From IMG/VR virus record IMGVR_UViG_3300033148_000978, positions 1 to 32,446 of that record: a stretch of 32,446 bases of DNA. One strand, written 5' to 3'. How positions within the stretch are numbered: position 1 is the stretch's first letter; each line of letters begins with the position of its first letter. Of the stretch, positions 135 through 32,446 are shown piece after piece. The position numbers and the translations under genes are program-made. This stretch comes from a virus. The notes below the pieces were generated by a model. That model made no database searches. It saw only the letters and a program-made list of their open reading frames with translations, and was not told the DNA's origin.

Positions 135-143
135 AACTTTACA

Positions 144-271
144 ATATTAGCATTACTAAGTGTTAATATACTTCTAGGTGTTCAAGCCGAAAGGGGAGTT
201 AATCACTCGATTAGCTCTTTCTTACTTTGAATAGCTAGAAGTTACGATTAGTAGTAAGAACTTGAACACCT
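144..271 (+). ncRNA. Candidate structured leader RNA / three-way junction
   Basis: Several complementary segments nest here. Hairpin A pairs ATATTAGCA (144-152) with TGTTAATAT (161-169), with one G-U. A perfect 11-bp outer stem pairs AGGTGTTCAAG (176-186) with CTTGAACACCT (261-271). Inside it, hairpin B pairs 193-204 with 209-220 (12 pairs, four of them G-U) around a 4-nt loop, and stem C pairs CTTACT (221-226) with AGTAAG (253-258). B and C abut directly, giving a three-way junction closed by the outer stem. It lies between a TATAAT and the first sizeable gene. No T-run follows, so it is not a simple terminator. The pairing is seen by eye; the function is unknown. Confidence 0.4.
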
Positions 272-313
272 CTTATAAAAACTTCCAAATTAAAATAGTT
301 TAAAGAACAGCAG

Positions 314-1581: not shown

Positions 1582-1835
1582 TTATCAACCGAGAAATTCT
1601 AAACCAACACACGACACATAAATACACAGTAGAAAGAGTAATGGCAAAAGCACGACACTTTCAAATCATATTCGATAAAATGGCACGAACATCAAACGGA
1701 GCGATTTATCCGACAGTTCATTTCAAAAAAGCCGATTGGATTGAAGCTCAGAAAATCCATATTGCAACAATGAGAATTGATGCGGTTGCGACTAATACAC
1801 AGTTGCTTGAATTTGTTGAGGGAGTGACGATATGA
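1578..1835 (+). CDS. Hypothetical protein, 85 aa
   Basis: I chose the ATG at 1578 (MIINREIL) because it overlaps the upstream stop by 4 bp and has GGTGGAG 8-13 bases upstream. A longer frame from 1551 would overlap the previous gene by 31 bp. No recognised domain; the protein is basic and helical (VERVMAKARHFQIIFDKMAR). It overlaps the next gene by 4 bp. Confidence 0.65.
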   Translation: MIINREILNQHTTHKYTVERVMAKARHFQIIFDKMARTSNGAIYPTVHFKKADWIEAQKIHIATMRIDAVATNTQLLEFVEGVTI

Positions 1836-2614
1836 AATATTTAGCAATGTTAAGTGGTGGACAAGATAGTACAGCAATGACTTTAAGGATGTTGGAATTA
1901 GGTATGCAAATTGATTATATTATATTTTGCGACACAGGGCTAGAGGTTAAAGAAATGTATAATTATATTGATAAATTAGATACATTTTTTCAGCGTAAAT
2001 ATAATATTAAGATCACAAGACTAAATCCAAGAAAAACTTTTGAAGAATGGGTATTTGGTAAAGTTACAAGTGGAGAAATGGAAGGAAAAATTAGAGGGAT
2101 ACCACTAATTACAACACCTTGCTATTGGAGAAGAGAAGTTAAAGAGTATGCTTTTCTTGATTTTATAAAAGAAAATAATATTACAGAATATATAAAGTAT
2201 ATAGGCTATACATTTAGGGAGAGTGATAGATGGAAAGATATTGAAAAATATAATGCAGTTGCACCTTTTGTAGAGTGGAAATGGAATGAGCCAGAAGTGC
2301 AAAAATATTTAAAAGACAATCAAATGGAAAATAAACTGTATCAGCATTTTACAAGAATAGGGTGCGGAATTTGTCCAAAACAAGGAAAGTCGTTCTATGA
2401 AGTATATAAATATTATCCTGATACATGGAAATACGCAAAAGACTTAGAGAAAAGACTATACAATGAAAGGGATATTTTAGGAGAAAAACAAATGCCTTCT
2501 TATGATATAAGCAGATTTTCGTGGGAACTAGAAGAAGATTTTAAAAGAAAAGATAAACAACAGACTTTCGATCTTGGATTTGCTCCACCTCAAGACTGTT
2601 TTTGTAAAATATAA
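1832..2614 (+). CDS. PAPS reductase-like / N-type ATP pyrophosphatase
   Basis: 260 aa. The N-terminus has the PP-loop signature SGGQDST (residues 8-14) on an alpha-hydrolase-like fold, followed by IIFCDTGLE (31-38), as in phosphoadenosine phosphosulfate reductases and related adenylating enzymes. Cysteines at 97, 178/181 (CGIC) and 256/258 (CFCKI) could ligate a metal or Fe-S cluster. Family members activate a substrate with ATP or reduce PAPS; phage versions are mostly uncharacterised, and some relatives (DndC) act in DNA phosphorothioation. No Dnd-like partners are nearby, so sulfur metabolism, nucleotide/tRNA modification and DNA modification all remain possible. It sits between the replication initiator and ninG. 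Confidence 0.8.
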   Translation: MKYLAMLSGGQDSTAMTLRMLELGMQIDYIIFCDTGLEVKEMYNYIDKLDTFFQRKYNIKITRLNPRKTFEEWVFGKVTSGEMEGKIRGIPLITTPCYWRREVKEYAFLDFIKENNITEYIKYIGYTFRESDRWKDIEKYNAVAPFVEWKWNEPEVQKYLKDNQMENKLYQHFTRIGCGICPKQGKSFYEVYKYYPDTWKYAKDLEKRLYNERDILGEKQMPSYDISRFSWELEEDFKRKDKQQTFDLGFAPPQDCFCKI

Positions 2615-8290: not shown

Positions 8291-8299
8291 TGCTATAAT
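8291..8299 (+). promoter_or_regulatory. Late promoter, extended -10 (TGCTATAAT)
   Basis: ATATGCTATAATGAG precedes the terminase genes. The same ATATGCTATAAT core occurs before the portal gene and before the GNAT gene. No -35 is seen. The ATG at 8298 lies inside this -10 and therefore cannot be the terminase start. Confidence 0.6.
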
Positions 8300-8333
8300 G
8301 AGTAAAACAAATTCGATTAATGGACGGAATACC

Positions 8334-8855
8334 ATGAGTGATAAAGCAACAACAAAACAAGAAAAACAATACAGAGCATTCGCACAAGAATACATAATAA
8401 GTTTTAATGGAAAAGAAGCAGCTATCAAAGCAGGGTATAGTGAAAAGACTGCATCCTCACAAGCAAGCCGATTGTTAACTCATGTTAAAGTTCAAGAGTA
8501 TCTTAAGTTTTATACAGAAGAGAGAGAAAAGAGAACAGAGATAACAGGTGATATGGTTATTAAAGAGTTGTCGAAAACTGCATTTATTCAAGAGTCAGAC
8601 TTCTATCACGATAACGGAGATGTTAAAAAATTAAGTGAACTTACAGATGAACAGAAAGCAGGGTTATCTTCATACGGATTTAAGTCTTTACATATTGGAG
8701 ATGGAGAATACATTGATGTTCCAGTATTTAAAGCACAAGATAAAATAAAATCACTTGAGTTACTTGGGAAACATTTCGGAATATTCAACGAGAAAACAGA
8801 GATGATACATAGTGGACATATAACGATGTTACCACCTAAAGATGAAGATAATTAA
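8334..8855 (+). CDS. terS: Terminase small subunit
   Basis: I chose ATG 8334 (MSDKATTKQEK), with GGACGGA upstream; the in-frame ATG at 8298 overlaps the promoter -10. 173 aa. The N-terminal HTH region reads FAQEYIISFNGKEAAIKAGYSEKTASSQASRLL, the hallmark of the Terminase_2 family ('Fv.eYl...n.t.AaikAGYs..tA...asrLL'), followed by a helical oligomerisation part and a C-terminal segment (KSLELLGKHFGIFNEKTE) typical of the family. It recognises phage DNA for packaging and hands it to the large subunit, which starts directly after its stop codon. Confidence 0.92.
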   Translation: MSDKATTKQEKQYRAFAQEYIISFNGKEAAIKAGYSEKTASSQASRLLTHVKVQEYLKFYTEEREKRTEITGDMVIKELSKTAFIQESDFYHDNGDVKKLSELTDEQKAGLSSYGFKSLHIGDGEYIDVPVFKAQDKIKSLELLGKHFGIFNEKTEMIHSGHITMLPPKDEDN

Positions 8856-10277: not shown

Positions 10278-10286
10278 TGCTATAAT
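10278..10286 (+). promoter_or_regulatory. Late promoter, extended -10 (TGCTATAAT)
   Basis: ATATGCTATAATGTG in the 58-bp gap before the portal gene; nearly identical to the site before the terminase genes. No -35 seen; the upstream DNA is AT-rich. Confidence 0.6.
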
Positions 10287-26295: not shown

Positions 26296-26346
26296 ATGCC
26301 AACAATAGACACAGCAACAATATTAAAAGTTTTTAGTGTGTTCTAA
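26296..26346 (+). pseudogene. Remnant gene start resembling the tailspike N-terminus
   Basis: ATGCCAACAATAGACACAGC starts right after the stop of the giant ejection gene, with AAAAAGGAAAAATAA as ribosome-binding site, and encodes MPTIDTATILKVFSVF before a stop. Its first 14 bases differ at one position from the start of the tailspike (ATGGCAACAATAGA at 26760; MATIDAASLF). It looks like an original spike or fibre start cut off by the minus-strand insertion. Confidence 0.4.
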
Positions 26347-26625
26347 CTTGTTGGAAACTATATAGCTATCGTATGCTTTTGCTGCGTCAATTTTCTCTGA
26401 GTATTGACCTATATATTTTTGCTTTGTATTAGTTTTGGTATTAAAGCACCCACAACTCTTAGAAGTTCCCTTTTTAACAGTTGTCAATATTGCTCTGTAT
26501 TCTTTACCACAAGAACACTTAAACAAACCGTAGTGATTTTTTTGTTTACTTTTTTCAGTAGGGAATAACATTCCTAAATCTTGTATCATTGTTGGCTTTG
26601 GTGGTATTTTTATTGAAGTTTTCAT
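26323..26625 (-). CDS. AP2/zinc-ribbon mobile gene (homing-type), minus strand
   Basis: 100 aa and the only convincing minus-strand gene. The N-terminal part MIQDLGMLFPTEKSKQKNHYG, then FKCSCGKEYRAILTTVKKGTSKSCGC, is the zinc-ribbon module of phage homing-type proteins. The C-terminus KYIGQYSEKIDAAKAYDSYI has the second half of an AP2 DNA-binding domain ('yiG.fdt.eeAAkAYd.aa'). No HNH segment is present, so it is short, perhaps degenerate. TTCCTT on the plus strand (26632-26637) gives the site AAGGAA 6 bases before the ATG. Opposite orientation and position between virion genes indicate insertion. Confidence 0.7.
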   Translation of the reverse strand: MKTSIKIPPKPTMIQDLGMLFPTEKSKQKNHYGLFKCSCGKEYRAILTTVKKGTSKSCGCFNTKTNTKQKYIGQYSEKIDAAKAYDSYIVSNKLEHTKNF

Positions 26626-26759: not shown

Positions 26760-28826
26760 ATGGCAACAATAGATGCGGCCTCTCTGTTTTTTGACACACA
26801 GTTTCAAGCCTTCGGAGATGATGGCGCAGCAGTAGCACTTGGAACAGTTCTTTTTACTCGTTCAGACAATGGTGCAGAAGTAGATACATATAAAACAGCA
26901 CAAAGAACAGCTATGAATACAAGACCAGTTGTTTTAAGTGCAAGTGGTAAAGCGGATATTTATGTAGACAACGGACAGTATACAGTAGTTGTAAAAGACT
27001 CTAATGATTTAACTGTTAGAACTATTGAAGACTTCTCACCTGCAATATCATCTACGGAAGATTTTGCAACAAACTTTGCACTAGCTTTAGCAGATACAAC
27101 TCCAGTAATATATAGAGATACAATCGCAAATATGCTATTAATAGATGGAGAACTATTTCCAACAGTTAATGTTCAAGCAGAAGGTGTTGGTGGGATATTT
27201 AATTATGATGATACACAAGTAGCAGTAAATAATGGTGTTACAATCTTTGATGGTTGGGTTAGACAGGATTTAACCCCAATTAATGTTAAGTGGGCTGGTG
27301 CAAAAGGCGATGGAATTGAAGATGAGATTGTTGCAATTCAAGCAGCTTTAGATATAGGTGGAGATATATTTTTCCCTGAAGGAGATTATAATCTTTCAGC
27401 AGCAGTTGTTCCAATTTCAAATTCTACTATATATGGTGAAAAAGGCGCAAGAATAATTAAATCTGATGCTGGGACTGATTATGATTTATTTGACAATAAG
27501 ACTGGAACATTAAATAATATAACAGTAAGAGACTTAGAATTTGTAGGAAGTGGTGTTGCGTCAGGTGTATCATTTGGTATAAACTTTCAAGGAACTTCAA
27601 GTGTTGCAACAACAGCACCAGTGAGAATTACAAACATTACTGTTAAAGATTGCCAGTTTAGTCTTTTTCAATCAGGCGGTATGTATATTAGATATGCTAA
27701 AAACTTCTATGTCTTAAATAATCTCGTAACAGATTGTAGAGTTTATGGTATTTTAATAGGCTCTGGCTCAATAGGTGTAATAAAGAATAACATTGTGAAA
27801 AGAATTACTGAGACAGGTTCAGGATATGGGATCATAATGACTTCTTCATGGGATGCTGGAAGTGATACAGTAAGATTTCCTAGAAGCCAAGATATAGTGT
27901 GTTCTGATAATTACGTTGAAGAGGTAACAAATTGGACAGGTATTGATACACACGGTGGGTTAAACATCAAGATACTAGACAACACTATTCTTGGTTGTCA
28001 CTATGGAATAGGGATGGGAAAAGTTGATAGTGGAGGCTCAGGCAATATGTTTACTACCTCTAACTCTATTGCAGATGGGAACTATGTTGTTGGAACAGTA
28101 AGCTTTTTCGGATTAGGAATATCAGGAACTTCAGCTATAAAAGGATATGATAATAAGATAATAAATAATACTTTCGTATCTTGTGGTAATGAAGCTTCTG
28201 TGGATGGCGCAGCATTATATGTAAATCATCAAGAGGGTACGTTAATATCAGGGAATACTTTTAATGAATGTGCTATTGAAGGTATTCAAATTGACTCCTC
28301 TGATAACTTTATATGTACTGAAAATACTATAAAAGATGTTTACTCAGATATAGGTACTGCAAGGTGTATAGATATTGAAAATAACTCTAAAGGTGTAATT
28401 AATAACAATAGAGCAATTAGAGTAAATTCAGGTCTTGGAACTTCTGTTACAGAGGTTGGTTTAAGGGTAAGTGATGCAACGGGATTAGTATTGGATGACA
28501 ATGATTTTGAAGAAGCAGTTACACCGTATGAGATTACGGCAGGAATGCCCTTGGTATATCCGACTTCTGAAGTCGGGCAAGATACTTCCGCTGCTAGCAC
28601 TGGTGCTTCTTATCTTGATGTTGTTATCCCTTTAAGAAGAAAGTTATCAGCAAACCCAGTAAATATATTGGCATCCTCTAATAGAGGCTTTGGTGGTGTA
28701 GGAATAATTTCATATCCTTTTACTCAGACAACTACGACAATAACGATAAGACACGCAACAGTAGATGGAAGTAATTTTGCAAGTGCTTATAATATAATAA
28801 CATATTATCAAACAAGTGGATATTAA
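26760..28826 (+). CDS. Tailspike protein with parallel beta-helix
   Basis: 688 aa. The N-terminal region (1-110) is a virion-attachment domain of the kind found in phages (LGTVLFTRSDNGAEVDTYKT..., then YVDNGQYTVVVKDSNDLTVRTIEDF). INVKWAGAKGDGIEDEIVAIQAAL (174-197) followed by GDIFFPEGDYNLS is the classic start of a pectate-lyase-like beta-helix. Repeated short strands (ILDNTILGC, ISGNTFNECAIEGIQIDSSDNF, INNNRAIRVNS) form the helix coils; a separate C-terminal domain (590-688) probably trimerises. It would bind, and perhaps degrade, surface polysaccharide of the host; the catalytic residues cannot be named from sequence alone. Confidence 0.85.
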   Translation: MATIDAASLFFDTQFQAFGDDGAAVALGTVLFTRSDNGAEVDTYKTAQRTAMNTRPVVLSASGKADIYVDNGQYTVVVKDSNDLTVRTIEDFSPAISSTEDFATNFALALADTTPVIYRDTIANMLLIDGELFPTVNVQAEGVGGIFNYDDTQVAVNNGVTIFDGWVRQDLTPINVKWAGAKGDGIEDEIVAIQAALDIGGDIFFPEGDYNLSAAVVPISNSTIYGEKGARIIKSDAGTDYDLFDNKTGTLNNITVRDLEFVGSGVASGVSFGINFQGTSSVATTAPVRITNITVKDCQFSLFQSGGMYIRYAKNFYVLNNLVTDCRVYGILIGSGSIGVIKNNIVKRITETGSGYGIIMTSSWDAGSDTVRFPRSQDIVCSDNYVEEVTNWTGIDTHGGLNIKILDNTILGCHYGIGMGKVDSGGSGNMFTTSNSIADGNYVVGTVSFFGLGISGTSAIKGYDNKIINNTFVSCGNEASVDGAALYVNHQEGTLISGNTFNECAIEGIQIDSSDNFICTENTIKDVYSDIGTARCIDIENNSKGVINNNRAIRVNSGLGTSVTEVGLRVSDATGLVLDDNDFEEAVTPYEITAGMPLVYPTSEVGQDTSAASTGASYLDVVIPLRRKLSANPVNILASSNRGFGGVGIISYPFTQTTTTITIRHATVDGSNFASAYNIITYYQTSGY

Positions 28827-28829
28827 ACC

Positions 28830-29033
28830 ATGATACCAGTGTTGTATAAAGAAATCATCAGATACATTATAATCGCTTTAATCATGTATGGAACTTACGA
28901 TATGTCAATGAGAGCTTATGATTTAGAGATAGCTGGAACTTTAACAATGCAATTTGCTGGTGTAGTTGCTTCAACCTATGCTATACTTACATTAGTTTTA
29001 AAATTCATATTTCAAAGTAAAGTAGGAGATTAG
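28830..29033 (+). CDS. Holin candidate
   Basis: 67 aa, with TM segments at about 8-24 (EIIRYIIIALIMYGTYDM) and 40-60 (MQFAGVVASTYAILTLVLKFIF) and a short charged C-terminus. Size, two-TM topology and position directly before spanin genes fit a class II holin, which permeabilises the inner membrane for lysis. It follows the tailspike by 3 bases and abuts the i-spanin gene. Confidence 0.7.
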   Translation: MIPVLYKEIIRYIIIALIMYGTYDMSMRAYDLEIAGTLTMQFAGVVASTYAILTLVLKFIFQSKVGD

Positions 29034-29282
29034 ATGTTAGGTTTATTTTTACAAAACAATGCACTTCCATACATAGCTATACTTATAATGGGTACTATCA
29101 TATACTTTCAATTTGAAAACTCAATAGAACAGAAACTATTAATAGCTGAACAAGAAGCTAGTATTGAATTAACTGCTAATAATATGAATATTATTCAGAC
29201 AATGAATGAGAACAGATTTAAAGCTCTTGAAACTGTTAGAAAAACTAAATGGAAGAGAGGCAAACATGAAGGTTCTTTTTAG
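29034..29282 (+). CDS. Inner-membrane spanin (Rz-like)
   Basis: 82 aa: an N-terminal membrane anchor at about 11-27 (PYIAILIMGTIIYFQFE) followed by a helical periplasmic part (LLIAEQEASIELTANNMNIIQTMNENRF) and a basic end. The lipoprotein gene starts inside it in another frame (17-bp overlap), the arrangement expected of an Rz/Rz1 pair that fuses inner and outer membranes. No direct sequence match to lambda Rz. Confidence 0.68.
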   Translation: MLGLFLQNNALPYIAILIMGTIIYFQFENSIEQKLLIAEQEASIELTANNMNIIQTMNENRFKALETVRKTKWKRGKHEGSF

Positions 29283-29526
29283 TATTACAATCTTTGTATT
29301 ATTATTTAGTGGATGCTCAACAGTTAAACCAGCAGTCTATTTACCTCATTTTGAAAGACTGAAACCAACTAATTTAAGCTGGACTGACATGACAGTAAAA
29401 GGTAAAAATGTTCACGTTTTAACTACTGATGAATGGAATGATGTTCAAATTGAACTTATAAATCGAAGAATTACGGGCAACACTTGCATTGATATAATTA
29501 ATAAAATTAGTGAACAAAACAAATAA
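29266..29526 (+). CDS. Outer-membrane spanin lipoprotein (Rz1-like)
   Basis: I chose ATG 29266 (MKVLFSITIFVLLFSGCST), preceded by GAGAGG; a longer frame from 29206 would place the signal internally. The signal peptide ends in the lipobox LFSG-C (Cys17), so the protein should be lipidated and exported. At 86 aa it is longer than Rz1 and less Pro-rich, with two further Pro in KPAVYLPHF. It overlaps the i-spanin gene in a different frame. Confidence 0.7.
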   Translation: MKVLFSITIFVLLFSGCSTVKPAVYLPHFERLKPTNLSWTDMTVKGKNVHVLTTDEWNDVQIELINRRITGNTCIDIINKISEQNK

Positions 29527-29530
29527 GTGT

Positions 29531-29538
29531 GTTATAAT
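29531..29538 (+). promoter_or_regulatory. Promoter -10 (GTTATAAT)
   Basis: GTGTGTTATAATACA in the 43-bp gap before the 114-aa membrane gene. No -35. TTTAAAGG 9-16 bases before the ATG at 29570 is the ribosome-binding site. Confidence 0.5.
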
Positions 29539-29569
29539 ACAATAAATACATTTTAAAGGTTTATTAGTT

Positions 29570-29914
29570 ATGCCTGGAACAAGAACTCCCTCACAAGAAA
29601 CAGTAGATAATACAGTTGCAATCGGACAACTAACAGTCATTTCAGAGAGAACCACTAAAGACGTGGATAGACTTGTAAAACACATTGAAAAGATTTTGCC
29701 AATTCACGAAAAACTCTCAAACTTAAAAAAGATACTTTACTCAACAATAACACTTATCTTTGCTTTTTGTTGTTGGATTTCCCTAGAACACTTTGACTTA
29801 AAATCAAACTTTCATTCCTTAGAAAAAGTAGAAGCAGAAAAACACAAAGGGATAGATAAAAAAATAAATACCAACACAAATCAAATAACATATCTCGAAG
29901 GAAGAATTAAATAA
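29570..29914 (+). CDS. One-TM membrane protein, XhlA-like candidate
   Basis: 114 aa. A coiled-coil-like N-terminus (VAIGQLTVISERTTKDVDRLVKHIEKI), one TM segment at about 53-74 (LKKILYSTITLIFAFCCWISL) and a second coiled-coil-like tail (KGIDKKINTNTNQITYLEGRIK). The pattern 'GqLaviSErT.....v....' recalls XhlA-type membrane-associated lysis or holin-accessory proteins. It sits between the spanins and the lysin candidate and shares one base with the latter's start. Tentative. Confidence 0.55.
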   Translation: MPGTRTPSQETVDNTVAIGQLTVISERTTKDVDRLVKHIEKILPIHEKLSNLKKILYSTITLIFAFCCWISLEHFDLKSNFHSLEKVEAEKHKGIDKKINTNTNQITYLEGRIK

Positions 29915-30354
29915 TGTTCATTCAACTAATGAGACTTCAAGATAATGGAAAATCTACAATTGGCACTATGCACATTAATGGAACTTTTGAATGTTTCTCG
30001 CTAGAAGATGCTTTTAATGAGCCTAAAATATTTAGTGAAACAAGAATACCTGATGGAGAGTATGAAATAAAACTCAGAACTGAAGGAAATATGACAAAGA
30101 CTTATTCCAAGAAATATGGTGACGATCACGAAGGAATGTTATGGCTTCAAGATGTGCCTGGATTTGAATGGGTTTATTTACATACTGGTAATAAGCATGA
30201 ACATACTGATGGTTGCATATTGGTTGGTACTGGATGCGACTCTAATAAAATAAGGCAAAATGTAACAGGTAGTGTTCTCAAATACAAAAAAACTTATGCA
30301 AAAATACTTCAAGCAATAAAAGATGGCGAAACAGTCACTATTCAAATAATATAA
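29914..30354 (+). CDS. DUF5675-family protein, probable endolysin
   Basis: 146 aa. IGTMHINGTFECFSLED (16-32), RIPDGEYEIKL (44-54), LWLQDVPGFEWVYLHTGN (76-93) and TDGCILVG (98-105) match the DUF5675 pattern. H90, D99 and C101 lie in a 'HxGN...T.GC..vG' arrangement reminiscent of L,D-transpeptidase-type active sites, though no activity is established to my knowledge. No lysozyme, amidase or transglycosylase exists elsewhere in the window, so within the lysis cassette this is the only candidate for cutting peptidoglycan. No signal peptide, hence release would depend on the holin. Confidence 0.7.
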   Translation: MFIQLMRLQDNGKSTIGTMHINGTFECFSLEDAFNEPKIFSETRIPDGEYEIKLRTEGNMTKTYSKKYGDDHEGMLWLQDVPGFEWVYLHTGNKHEHTDGCILVGTGCDSNKIRQNVTGSVLKYKKTYAKILQAIKDGETVTIQII

Positions 30355-30403
30355 ATCTCCACTACAATAAACAACTAATCATAATAATCACAATTTAGCA
30401 ATA

Positions 30404-30423
30404 ACCTAAGGTCTACCTAAGGT
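30404..30423 (+). promoter_or_regulatory. Tandem operator (ACCTAAGGT x2)
   Basis: ACCTAAGGT occurs at 30404-30412 and 30415-30423. Each is an inverted repeat (ACCT-A-AGGT), and the centres are 11 bp apart, one helical turn. They lie just upstream of the TATAAT at 30433, covering the -35 position. The first gene downstream encodes a ribbon-helix-helix protein, a class that commonly binds short tandem repeats. Confidence 0.5.
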
Positions 30424-30432
30424 AAACTATTA

Positions 30433-30438
30433 TATAAT
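30433..30438 (+). promoter_or_regulatory. Promoter -10 of the recombination operon
   Basis: TATAAT in CTATTATATAATTTTC, 10 bp after the second operator repeat; AAAGGATAG (30453-30461) and the ATG at 30467 follow. Confidence 0.5.
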
Positions 30439-30466
30439 TTTCTATCTCATTTAAAGGATAGGGAAA

Positions 30467-30607
30467 ATGACAAAAGAAAAACACATAATAGTTGATGAAG
30501 AAACTCATCAAATGGCGAAAGACCAAGCGAAACAAGCTGGTATGACAATACAAGGTTATGTTAAAAGTTGTTTTAATAGTTGCAAATCAGATAAAAAGGC
30601 TAAGTAA
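30467..30607 (+). CDS. Ribbon-helix-helix DNA-binding protein, 46 aa
   Basis: MTKEKHIIVDEETHQMAKDQ, then AKQAGMTIQGYVKSCFNS. This is the beta-strand / helix A / 'Gm(T/S)' turn / helix B pattern of Arc/CopG/MetJ-type proteins. It has a good ribosome-binding site (AAAGGATAGG) and is the first gene behind the tandem operator, so autoregulation is likely. It could also control the ERF-YqaJ operon that follows. It shares the base at 30607 with the next ATG (TAATG). Confidence 0.65.
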   Translation: MTKEKHIIVDEETHQMAKDQAKQAGMTIQGYVKSCFNSCKSDKKAK

Positions 30608-30789
30608 TGAAAAAAACAGTATCAAAAACAGTTGATTTAAAATTAACTGAGGAAGAAGTGATTGAATGTATTATTAAGTGTCATATTGAAGATATTCAAG
30701 ATAATGAAAAAGCAGTGTTGGTTTCAGCATATCAATCATTAGGCGAATACAATTTTAAAATTGTTCCTAAAAAGGACAAAAAATGCTAA
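30607..30789 (+). CDS. Hypothetical protein, 60 aa
   Basis: MKKTVSKTVDLKLTEEEVIECIIKCHIED... with a strand then helix and a basic end (KIVPKKDKKC). No family recognised. It overlaps the next small gene by 7 bp and belongs to the recombination operon. Confidence 0.6.
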   Translation: MKKTVSKTVDLKLTEEEVIECIIKCHIEDIQDNEKAVLVSAYQSLGEYNFKIVPKKDKKC

Positions 30790-30863
30790 TTATTTTATCA
30801 GCAATTGGTTTTTTAATGATAGTAGCTGAAATGCAATCAAAAACAATAGAAAAGAGAGTTTAA
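30783..30863 (+). CDS. Single-TM micropeptide, 26 aa
   Basis: MLIILSAIGFLMIVAEMQ followed by a basic tail SKTIEKRV. AAAAAGGAC precedes the ATG at good distance, and the stop is one base before the ERF start. A hydrophobic N-terminus with a charged end suggests a small membrane peptide; function unknown. Confidence 0.42.
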   Translation: MLIILSAIGFLMIVAEMQSKTIEKRV

Positions 30864-30864
30864 A

Positions 30865-31422
30865 ATGGAAAAAAATAATAACGGTATTTATGGAAAGCTT
30901 TTTAATGTTCAAGCAAATGTAGGAAGATTAAAAAAAGACAAAACTAATCCTCACTTTAAAAATTCGTATGTTGATGTTAATAGTGTATTAGAAGAAACAT
31001 TGCCTGTTCTTAATGAAGAAAAGGTTTTATTGCTTCAGCCAACAGAAGTTAAAAATGGAGTAAATTATCTTTACACAAAGCTAGTTGATATTGAAGATGG
31101 TTCAAGAGTTGAGGCATCAATGATTTTACCAAATGGCTTAGATGCTCAAAAGACAGGCTCAGCACTCACTTATTATCGTAGGTATATGCTAGTATCTATT
31201 TTAGGATTACAGGCTGTAGATGATGATGGAAAAGCAGGAAGCAATCCAATTAAAGATAATAAAAAACCTACTGAAGAAATGATACTTGAATTAGAAGGCT
31301 TCTTTAACGGGAATGTTGAATTTAGAACTCAATGGCTGCAATATTTAAAAGTTGAAAGATTTGAATTATCAACATTCGGACAAATTGAAAAAGCAATTAA
31401 GCAATTAAGAAAAGGAGCTTAA
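30865..31422 (+). CDS. erf: ERF-family single-strand annealing protein
   Basis: 185 aa. LFNVQANVGRLKKDKTNPHFKNSYVDVNSVLEETLPVLNEEKVLL matches the N-terminal core of ERF proteins (P22 Erf relatives), with the family block AQKTGSALTYYRRYMLVSILGLQAVDDDG (about 99-127). The C-terminal 55 residues are a separate helical tail. It anneals complementary single strands exposed by the exonuclease encoded next, giving recombination or circularisation of phage DNA. Only one base separates it from the exonuclease start. Confidence 0.92.
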   Translation: MEKNNNGIYGKLFNVQANVGRLKKDKTNPHFKNSYVDVNSVLEETLPVLNEEKVLLLQPTEVKNGVNYLYTKLVDIEDGSRVEASMILPNGLDAQKTGSALTYYRRYMLVSILGLQAVDDDGKAGSNPIKDNKKPTEEMILELEGFFNGNVEFRTQWLQYLKVERFELSTFGQIEKAIKQLRKGA

Positions 31423-31423
31423 A

Positions 31424-32287
31424 GTGAGAAAAGAAATAGTTGATGAAACTTCAGTACAAGGAAGTGCTGAATGGTTAGAGGCAAGAAAAGGTTTTAGAAA
31501 TGCAAGTGAAACTCCTGATGTTATGGGAGAGGGCTTTAATACTCCAAATAAACTAAAGAGAATTAAAGCAGGGCTTGATACTGTATATGTTAATAGTGCT
31601 ATGAAAAGAGGTAATGAACTTGAAGATCAAGTAAGAGAGTGGGCGGAAAAAGAACTTGATGAAATGTTTGCTGCTTCTGTTTGGGAAAATGGAAAATATA
31701 GAGCTTCATTAGATGGCTTAAATTTCGGTCAAGATTTGTTAATAGAAATTAAAGTATCTGATATTTCATTCGATGAAGTACAGGATGGAAATATCCCATA
31801 TAAATATCAGTTACAAATGCAACATCAAATGTATTGTAGCCCTGTCGAAAAAGGATATTTAATTGTTTATTCACCTACTAAAGATGAGTATATTATTAGT
31901 GAGCCGCTTGTATTTGATCATGGTTTATGGGAAAAAGTTCAAACAAAATGGGCGGAGTTTGATGCTATGGAAGTTCCAGAAGAAGAATATATTGAAATTG
32001 AAGATGAAAGATATTCAGAATTAGACCTTTTATATGCTGCAAAAAAAGAAATGATTGATGAATGGAACGCTTCTTTAAAAGAGATTAAAGCAGAAATGGA
32101 GCTTATTGCTGATGGTAGAAATATCAAAGCTGTTCATACAACGCTTAATTTCGCTAATCGAAAAGGCTCGGTTGATTATAAAAAAATACTCAAAGAAAAT
32201 GATATAAAAGTAGATGAAGATACATTTAGAAAACCTTCAACAACTTATGCAACAATCAGAGTAAATAAGAATGATAATAAGCAATAA
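31424..32287 (+). CDS. YqaJ-type phage exonuclease
   Basis: 287 aa, GTG start after AAAGGAGC. VQGSAEWLEARKG (11-23) is the YqaJ/lambda-exo N-terminal motif; GNELE (63-67), ASLDG (94-98, D97) and LLIEIKVSD (105-113, E108/K110) supply the restriction-fold metal and lysine residues, and YQLQMQHQMYC follows at the expected distance. The last 90 residues form a helical coiled-coil region. It resects double-stranded ends to make 3' single strands for ERF, a standard two-component phage recombination pair. Confidence 0.92.
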   Translation: MRKEIVDETSVQGSAEWLEARKGFRNASETPDVMGEGFNTPNKLKRIKAGLDTVYVNSAMKRGNELEDQVREWAEKELDEMFAASVWENGKYRASLDGLNFGQDLLIEIKVSDISFDEVQDGNIPYKYQLQMQHQMYCSPVEKGYLIVYSPTKDEYIISEPLVFDHGLWEKVQTKWAEFDAMEVPEEEYIEIEDERYSELDLLYAAKKEMIDEWNASLKEIKAEMELIADGRNIKAVHTTLNFANRKGSVDYKKILKENDIKVDEDTFRKPSTTYATIRVNKNDNKQ

Positions 32288-32446
32288 TTTCAATAGGCTT
32301 CTAAGAGGTATAATAAAGGAGTTTAGAGACCAATTAGTGTTAGGCATAGAAGATAAAGAGGAAGCAATAAAAATCACTCCTGTTATCGTTAAAACTATGC
32401 TGTGTGCTGTTAATAAAAACTATCCTAAAGATGAAGATGGAAAACC
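32271..32446 (+). CDS. Partial hypothetical gene running off the right edge
   Basis: An open frame from ATG 32271 (MIISNNFNRLLRGIIKEFRD) with no stop before the end of the window, overlapping the exonuclease gene by 17 bp. At least 58 residues, starting with a basic helix followed by an acidic stretch (GIEDKEEAIKITPVIVKTML). The ribosome-binding site is weak and the start could lie slightly downstream. No family recognised; from its position it is probably another member of the recombination operon. Confidence 0.5.
   Translation, partial: MIISNNFNRLLRGIIKEFRDQLVLGIEDKEEAIKITPVIVKTMLCAVNKNYPKDEDGK

Follow-up and report, generated by a model that had tools for sequence, protein, structure and literature searches.

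The window analysed here spans a complete virus record (32,446 bp), which may represent a genome fragment. Its phage genes include a P22-type portal (PF16510, E 2.4e-177), the small and large terminase subunits, NinG and a DnaD-like replication protein. An almost gap-free run of plus-strand genes starts at 30467 with the gene for a 46-aa protein of CopG-like size (30467-30607), for which a ribbon-helix-helix (RHH) fold is predicted and which is the proposed autoregulator. A likely ribosome-binding site, AAAGGATA, is located upstream of this open reading frame (ORF) at 30453-30460; the motif occurs nine times on the plus strand of the record and once on the minus strand. The second gene (30607-30789) starts on the last base of the RHH gene's stop codon and encodes a 60-aa protein with a low-confidence model and no assigned function. 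A hydrophobic ORF of 26 codons (30783-30863) bridges to the genes of an ERF-family single-strand annealing protein (30865-31422; PF04404, E 2.1e-23) and a YqaJ-family exonuclease/recombinase (31424-32287; PF09588, E 6.5e-12). A scan of 28800-32446 for terminator-like sites returned none, which is a weak result since shuffled sequences give only 1.2. It is plausible that ERF and YqaJ are driven by a promoter with its -10 element at 30433, and further internal promoters are possible.

Three observations concern other parts of the window. The leader before the replication genes (135-305, plus strand) contains a candidate structured RNA of -47 kcal/mol (shuffled: -27.1, sd 4.0; z -4.98; 0 of 200 as low), in which an outer stem of GGTGTTCAAG and CTTGAACACC surrounds further hairpins; Rfam gave no match at the gathering score over the whole record, this RNA included. 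The gene at 1832-2614 (plus strand) encodes a PAPS-reductase-like phage protein (phrog_424; PF01507) that is also matched by the SspD model of PADLOC (E 7.3e-17). A 100-aa ORF is found on the minus strand (26323-26625) between two long plus-strand genes, and the other long ORFs look one-directional.

Upstream of the gene run, the palindromic 9-mer ACCTAAGGT occurs at 30404-30412 and again at 30415-30423, so that 30404-30423 has the layout ACCTAAGGT-CT-ACCTAAGGT. Each copy consists of 4-bp arms flanking a central A, with the centres at 30408 and 30419. The record contains no other exact ACCTnAGGT site; at three single sites the motif is off by one base. Among 100 dinucleotide shuffles, two contained at least two ACCTnAGGT sites per record. 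Exactly repeated odd palindromes of 9 bp at an offset of 9-25 bp occur on average 0.03 times per shuffled record (200 shuffles), and in 1 of 200 shuffles if at least three different bases are present in the arms. When the 110-bp leader was shuffled 1000 times, the full pair never appeared and a single exact site appeared five times. A looser tandem form (8-12 bp, offset of 14 or less) was found twice when other viral and phage loci totalling 992,887 bases were scanned, a set of partly overlapping loci from which those fetched by the pattern itself were excluded. The preliminary description had reported two identical 9-bp inverted repeats with centres 11 bp apart; they are exact in the sequence and beyond chance in the shuffles, and the scan for further ACCTnAGGT pairs that it proposed returned this pair alone. 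The site pair is real, well-formed and non-random.

The candidate -10 element, TATAAT at 30433-30438 on the plus strand, begins 9 bp past the second site. A pair followed by TATAAT at 6-14 bp was seen in none of 100 shuffles; the record has 43 plus-strand TATAATs, and one within a given range of nine positions is an event of about 1%. A 17-bp spacer would place the -35 hexamer at 30410-30415, within the pair, which bears out the earlier placement of the repeats on the -35 position, for what is here a candidate promoter. The best -35 hexamer for this TATAAT matches 2/6 positions at spacers of 16-18 and 3/6 at spacers of 15-19, and a TGn extension is absent. A consensus promoter scan called no promoter at 30433. 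The 14 calls that it made in the region, including nearby plus-strand calls at 30341-30368 and 30678-30705, are a chance number (18.3 in shuffles). The core promoter at 30433 looks weak by the E. coli rules that were used; those of the host may differ. The extended -10 element TGnTATAAT, as a separate observation, recurs in intergenic gaps at 10281, 12474, 18988 and 29533 and at the start of the ORF 8298-8855 (at 8294), and is not found at the operator promoter.

The 46-aa protein has the sequence MTKEKHIIVDEETHQMAKDQAKQAGMTIQGYVKSCFNSCKSDKKAK. Pfam contains no family that matches it above the curated cut-off; the best match is a NikA-like family (E 0.003, 18 bits against 27), followed by a zinc-finger family and a FitA-like RHH family (E 0.08), all sub-threshold. 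NCBIfam likewise gave no model above cut-off. As a control, three Mycoplasma relatives (see below) also stayed below the cut-offs and CopG itself passed, which makes this a weak test. A single-sequence AlphaFold2 monomer model (mean pLDDT 69) has helices at residues 11-23 and 28-39 and no strand, with about seven residues remaining after the second helix. Foldseek returned 59 matches in the PDB at E <=10, of which the best has E 0.41 and none reaches 0.001. Its first 13 rows are proteins known or titled as RHH, namely FitA, VapB- and MazE-type antitoxins, CopG, NikA, ORF56 and Arc. When the model was aligned to 91 of the Foldseek chains with VIA-align, PutA, Arc, CopG and MazE-type antitoxins ranked on top with Z 5.3-5.9. 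Such Z values alone are not decisive, and it is the consistency of the matches that speaks for the predicted RHH fold.

Relatives of the protein are found on plasmids. Searches yielded no match among phages at E 10, and none of 25 stretches from viral contigs was confirmed. In a plasmid collection, 20 records matched at E <=10 (14 from Streptomyces, five from Mycoplasma and one from Exiguobacterium). The best match (48% identity, E 0.03) is a 44-aa protein whose gene directly precedes rep on Mycoplasma yeatsii pMG2F-1. Proteins encoded at the same position on two more Mycoplasma plasmids, one of them carrying the annotation of a copy number control protein, match the 46-aa protein with E 2 and 3 and the M. 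yeatsii protein with E 2e-7 and 7e-4; a fourth plasmid codes for the same protein as the second Mycoplasma relative. None of 2000 shuffles reached similarities as good as the three Mycoplasma ones. The similarity to CopG depends on the method, being reached by 1 of 1000 shuffles in global alignment and by 90 of 2000 in local alignment. Among the Streptomyces matches listed, 9/10 cover 70% of the query and 1/10 covers 98%. The earlier statement that the first gene encodes a 46-aa RHH protein thus stands as far as the position of the ORF directly after the promoter, the predicted fold and the relatives are concerned, and lacks a family model above cut-off.

The operator is not clearly echoed in any of six Mycoplasma and Streptomyces loci that carry plasmid relatives, and no operator was recognised in the two fetched Streptomyces loci. 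Two ACC motifs 11 bp apart in a Mycoplasma plasmid (L168) were considered as an echo and rejected, as the agreement of 10/16 was reached by 56 of 1000 shuffles and is not significant; the other five loci agree at 8-9/16, reached by 483-904 of 1000 shuffles. Aligned with CopG, the 46-aa protein would place E4, H6 and I8 at the DNA-facing positions, an unusual set with a negative charge.

Records that share the early module were searched for with YqaJ, ERF, portal, RHH, DnaD-like and DUF5675 proteins, and none was found. YqaJ matched three distant loci in viral contigs (29-31% identity), and none of eight ERF stretches, or of 31 portal stretches from genome contigs, was confirmed. Six records with portal relatives (66-81%) contain no operator at three or fewer mismatches, no YqaJ and no RHH match, in a set without a positive control; five of the six are under 19 kb, and the early regions differ where present. 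Among two DnaD-like and 49 DUF5675 loci, 0/51 have a tblastn match at 1e-3 to RHH, ERF or YqaJ, and four of them were also read. A small ORF before an ERF-like gene in locus L004 appeared RHH-like by eye and was discarded when Pfam gave no support.

The 20-bp pattern itself is found in public collections at 13 viral and 53 genome loci, the latter count being near the roughly 60 expected by our own arithmetic. Viral sites are mostly of the direct kind (11/14, with some loci not independent, being copies from a single family or ends of the same contig), and genome sites are mostly inverted (38/54, with 14/54 direct). No RHH gene was recognised by eye in the small ORFs (35-130 aa) that start no more than 250 bp from these sites; this includes L153, which has the identical 20-mer and no RHH gene among its ORFs of 35-130 aa. 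In one viral family (L012 and L013, with L005 and L007 of the same sequence family), an ACCTnAGGT tandem pair is located 83 bp before the terminase large subunit gene (phrog_38, L012). Short repeat arrays are found near T7-type genome ends, and this pair is possibly comparable to them. A perfect 20-bp dyad, ACCTCAGGTCGACCTGAGGT, precedes an ORF of about 280-330 aa by 14-15 bp in L116, L117, L118, L149, L161 and L165 (also L159), the ORF of L116 being an alpha/beta hydrolase; the same dyad is found beside MerR genes in L122 and L164 and may serve Actinobacteria as an operator for MerR-family regulators.

What the data show are the tandem sites, the TATAAT, the order of the genes and a fold prediction. 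The best reading of them is a CopG/Arc-like autoregulator, in which the RHH protein would bind the pair and limit the operon; we give it somewhat better than even chances. The operon would be transcribed from the promoter with its -10 element at 30433, and its first gene would supply the 46-aa RHH protein, whose dimers would bind their two cognate ACCTAAGGT sites side by side, perhaps cooperatively, on one DNA face and one turn apart. Bound dimers would cover the -35 zone and limit the access of RNA polymerase. Feedback repression of this type would cap the expression of the RHH, 60-aa, ERF and YqaJ proteins after a first burst, and may thereby set its timing. The preliminary reading of a small repressor circuit is partly supported, in that the tandem site over the -35 zone is specific, the first gene is a plausible partner by its predicted fold, and ERF and YqaJ follow in the closely spaced run; cognate binding, repression and timing are proposals.

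One of the closest parallels is CopG of pMV158/pLS1, described in the available text of PMC5717011 as the auto-repressor of copG-repB. As in plasmid cop-rep operons, a small single-domain protein, here of predicted RHH fold, is encoded by the first gene and palindromes are present. The best match of the 46-aa protein is also located in a cop-rep setting; the M. yeatsii relative before rep has the gene order of autoregulated cop-rep operons and counts in favour of the CopG-like reading. The 46-aa protein is, however, only 16% identical to CopG, the operator sequence is not common to both, and the genes behind the RHH gene are phage recombination genes instead of replication genes, following a promoter that is a candidate. 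Moreover, the plasmid operator is a 13-bp symmetric element according to the title of del Solar 1990, whereas two separate 9-bp sites are present here. Arc and Mnt of phage P22 are likewise small phage-encoded RHH proteins; the window has a P22-type portal, and Arc is among the fold matches. Arc binds two subsites that are spaced by about one turn. Its target is ant in the immunity I region and not the stretch ahead of erf. A further difference is that the 46-aa protein has no sequence match at E 10 among PDB entries, Arc included.

Viral RHH proteins on tandem repeats at their own promoter, as proposed here, have a precedent in F55 of the Sulfolobus virus SSV1, which binds such repeats both at its own promoter and at early promoters according to the available part of PMC5569661. 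F55 belongs to an archaeal virus, has several target promoters and serves the maintenance of lysogeny, whereas a single site pair is present in this record. RelB dimers are described as binding adjacent half-sites on one DNA face (PMC2812701, available text). MobC of RA3, whose promoter is repressed by the protein itself via a palindrome located there (PMC4175270, available text), relates to the NikA-like family that is the best sub-threshold Pfam match; MobC is, in contrast, a transfer accessory protein of 176 aa. A literature search combining ribbon-helix-helix, phage early promoter, repressor and operator found no paper, and the text matches listed for ACCTAAGGT are unrelated by title. The proposed circuit is of a kind known from plasmids and other viruses and is ordinary in that respect. 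Against the CopG/Arc-like circuit, a promoter without a -35 element is unexpected where a strong promoter in need of repression is assumed; the E4/H6/I8 set, the family models below cut-off, the lack of an operator echo in relatives and the absence of a promoter call at 30433 count in the same direction.

The missing -35 element could instead mean that the pair is an activator site, at which the RHH protein or another phage protein would stand in for the -35 element and recruit polymerase; the outcome would be positive feedback or a switch of the delayed-early type. This is unlikely. A -35 hexamer matching 4/6 or better (spacer 15-19) or a TGn accompanies 7 of the 13 TATAATs listed outside a hand-made set of genes, and 30433 has neither; however, the same is true of five others, one of which (32309) falls in an open ORF left out of that set. 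RHH proteins are able to activate, AmrZ being described as both activator and repressor in the available text of PMC3325190. As a variant of the same low probability, an RHH protein of the plasmid copy-control type would use the pair as a -35 substitute and activate the annealase/exonuclease operon, or would activate it at low and repress it at high concentration. Small single-domain RHH autoregulators are mostly repressors, and a -35 box is dispensable in some bacteria, both of which weigh against activation. If true, the copy-control variant would couple recombination to phage copy number, as CopG couples rep to plasmid copy number.

Slightly less probable still is that the pair forms one 20-bp dyad which serves another regulator of host or phage origin, for example of the MerR type, with the RHH gene as a bystander. 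The pair can indeed be read as one imperfect 20-bp palindrome. Elsewhere the 20-bp pattern adjoins MerR genes in three Actinobacteria loci (inverted kind in L122 and L164, direct kind in L152), these being the three small ORFs near the pattern that were tested by Pfam, and it precedes the alpha/beta hydrolase gene of L116. The site in the window is of the direct kind, 9 bp before TATAAT; since the L152 site beside MerR is also direct, the argument from direct versus inverted sites against a dyad is weakened. Against a single dyad, the arms of each 9-mer form a perfect palindrome and the central base is identical in both copies, no -35 hexamer was seen upstream at MerR-like spacing when the sequence was read by eye, and a gene of predicted RHH fold immediately downstream makes a more economical partner.

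A toxin-antitoxin operon, with the RHH protein as antitoxin, the overlapping 60-aa product as toxin and the tandem site as the usual operator, would agree with the one-base overlap of the two genes and with the fold matches to FitA, VapB and MazE-type antitoxins, but is very improbable given that Pfam, NCBIfam, PHROGs and PADLOC link the poorly modelled 60-aa protein to no toxin family and that the RHH protein extends only about seven residues past its second helix. The idea of an anti-CRISPR-associated (Aca) regulator was also dropped, with no support for the 60-aa protein as an anti-defence protein.

If the CopG/Arc-like autoregulator is correct, a compact regulator of the plasmid copy-control type would be placed ahead of phage recombination genes, and the locus would show a way in which a phage of this kind doses its annealase and exonuclease.
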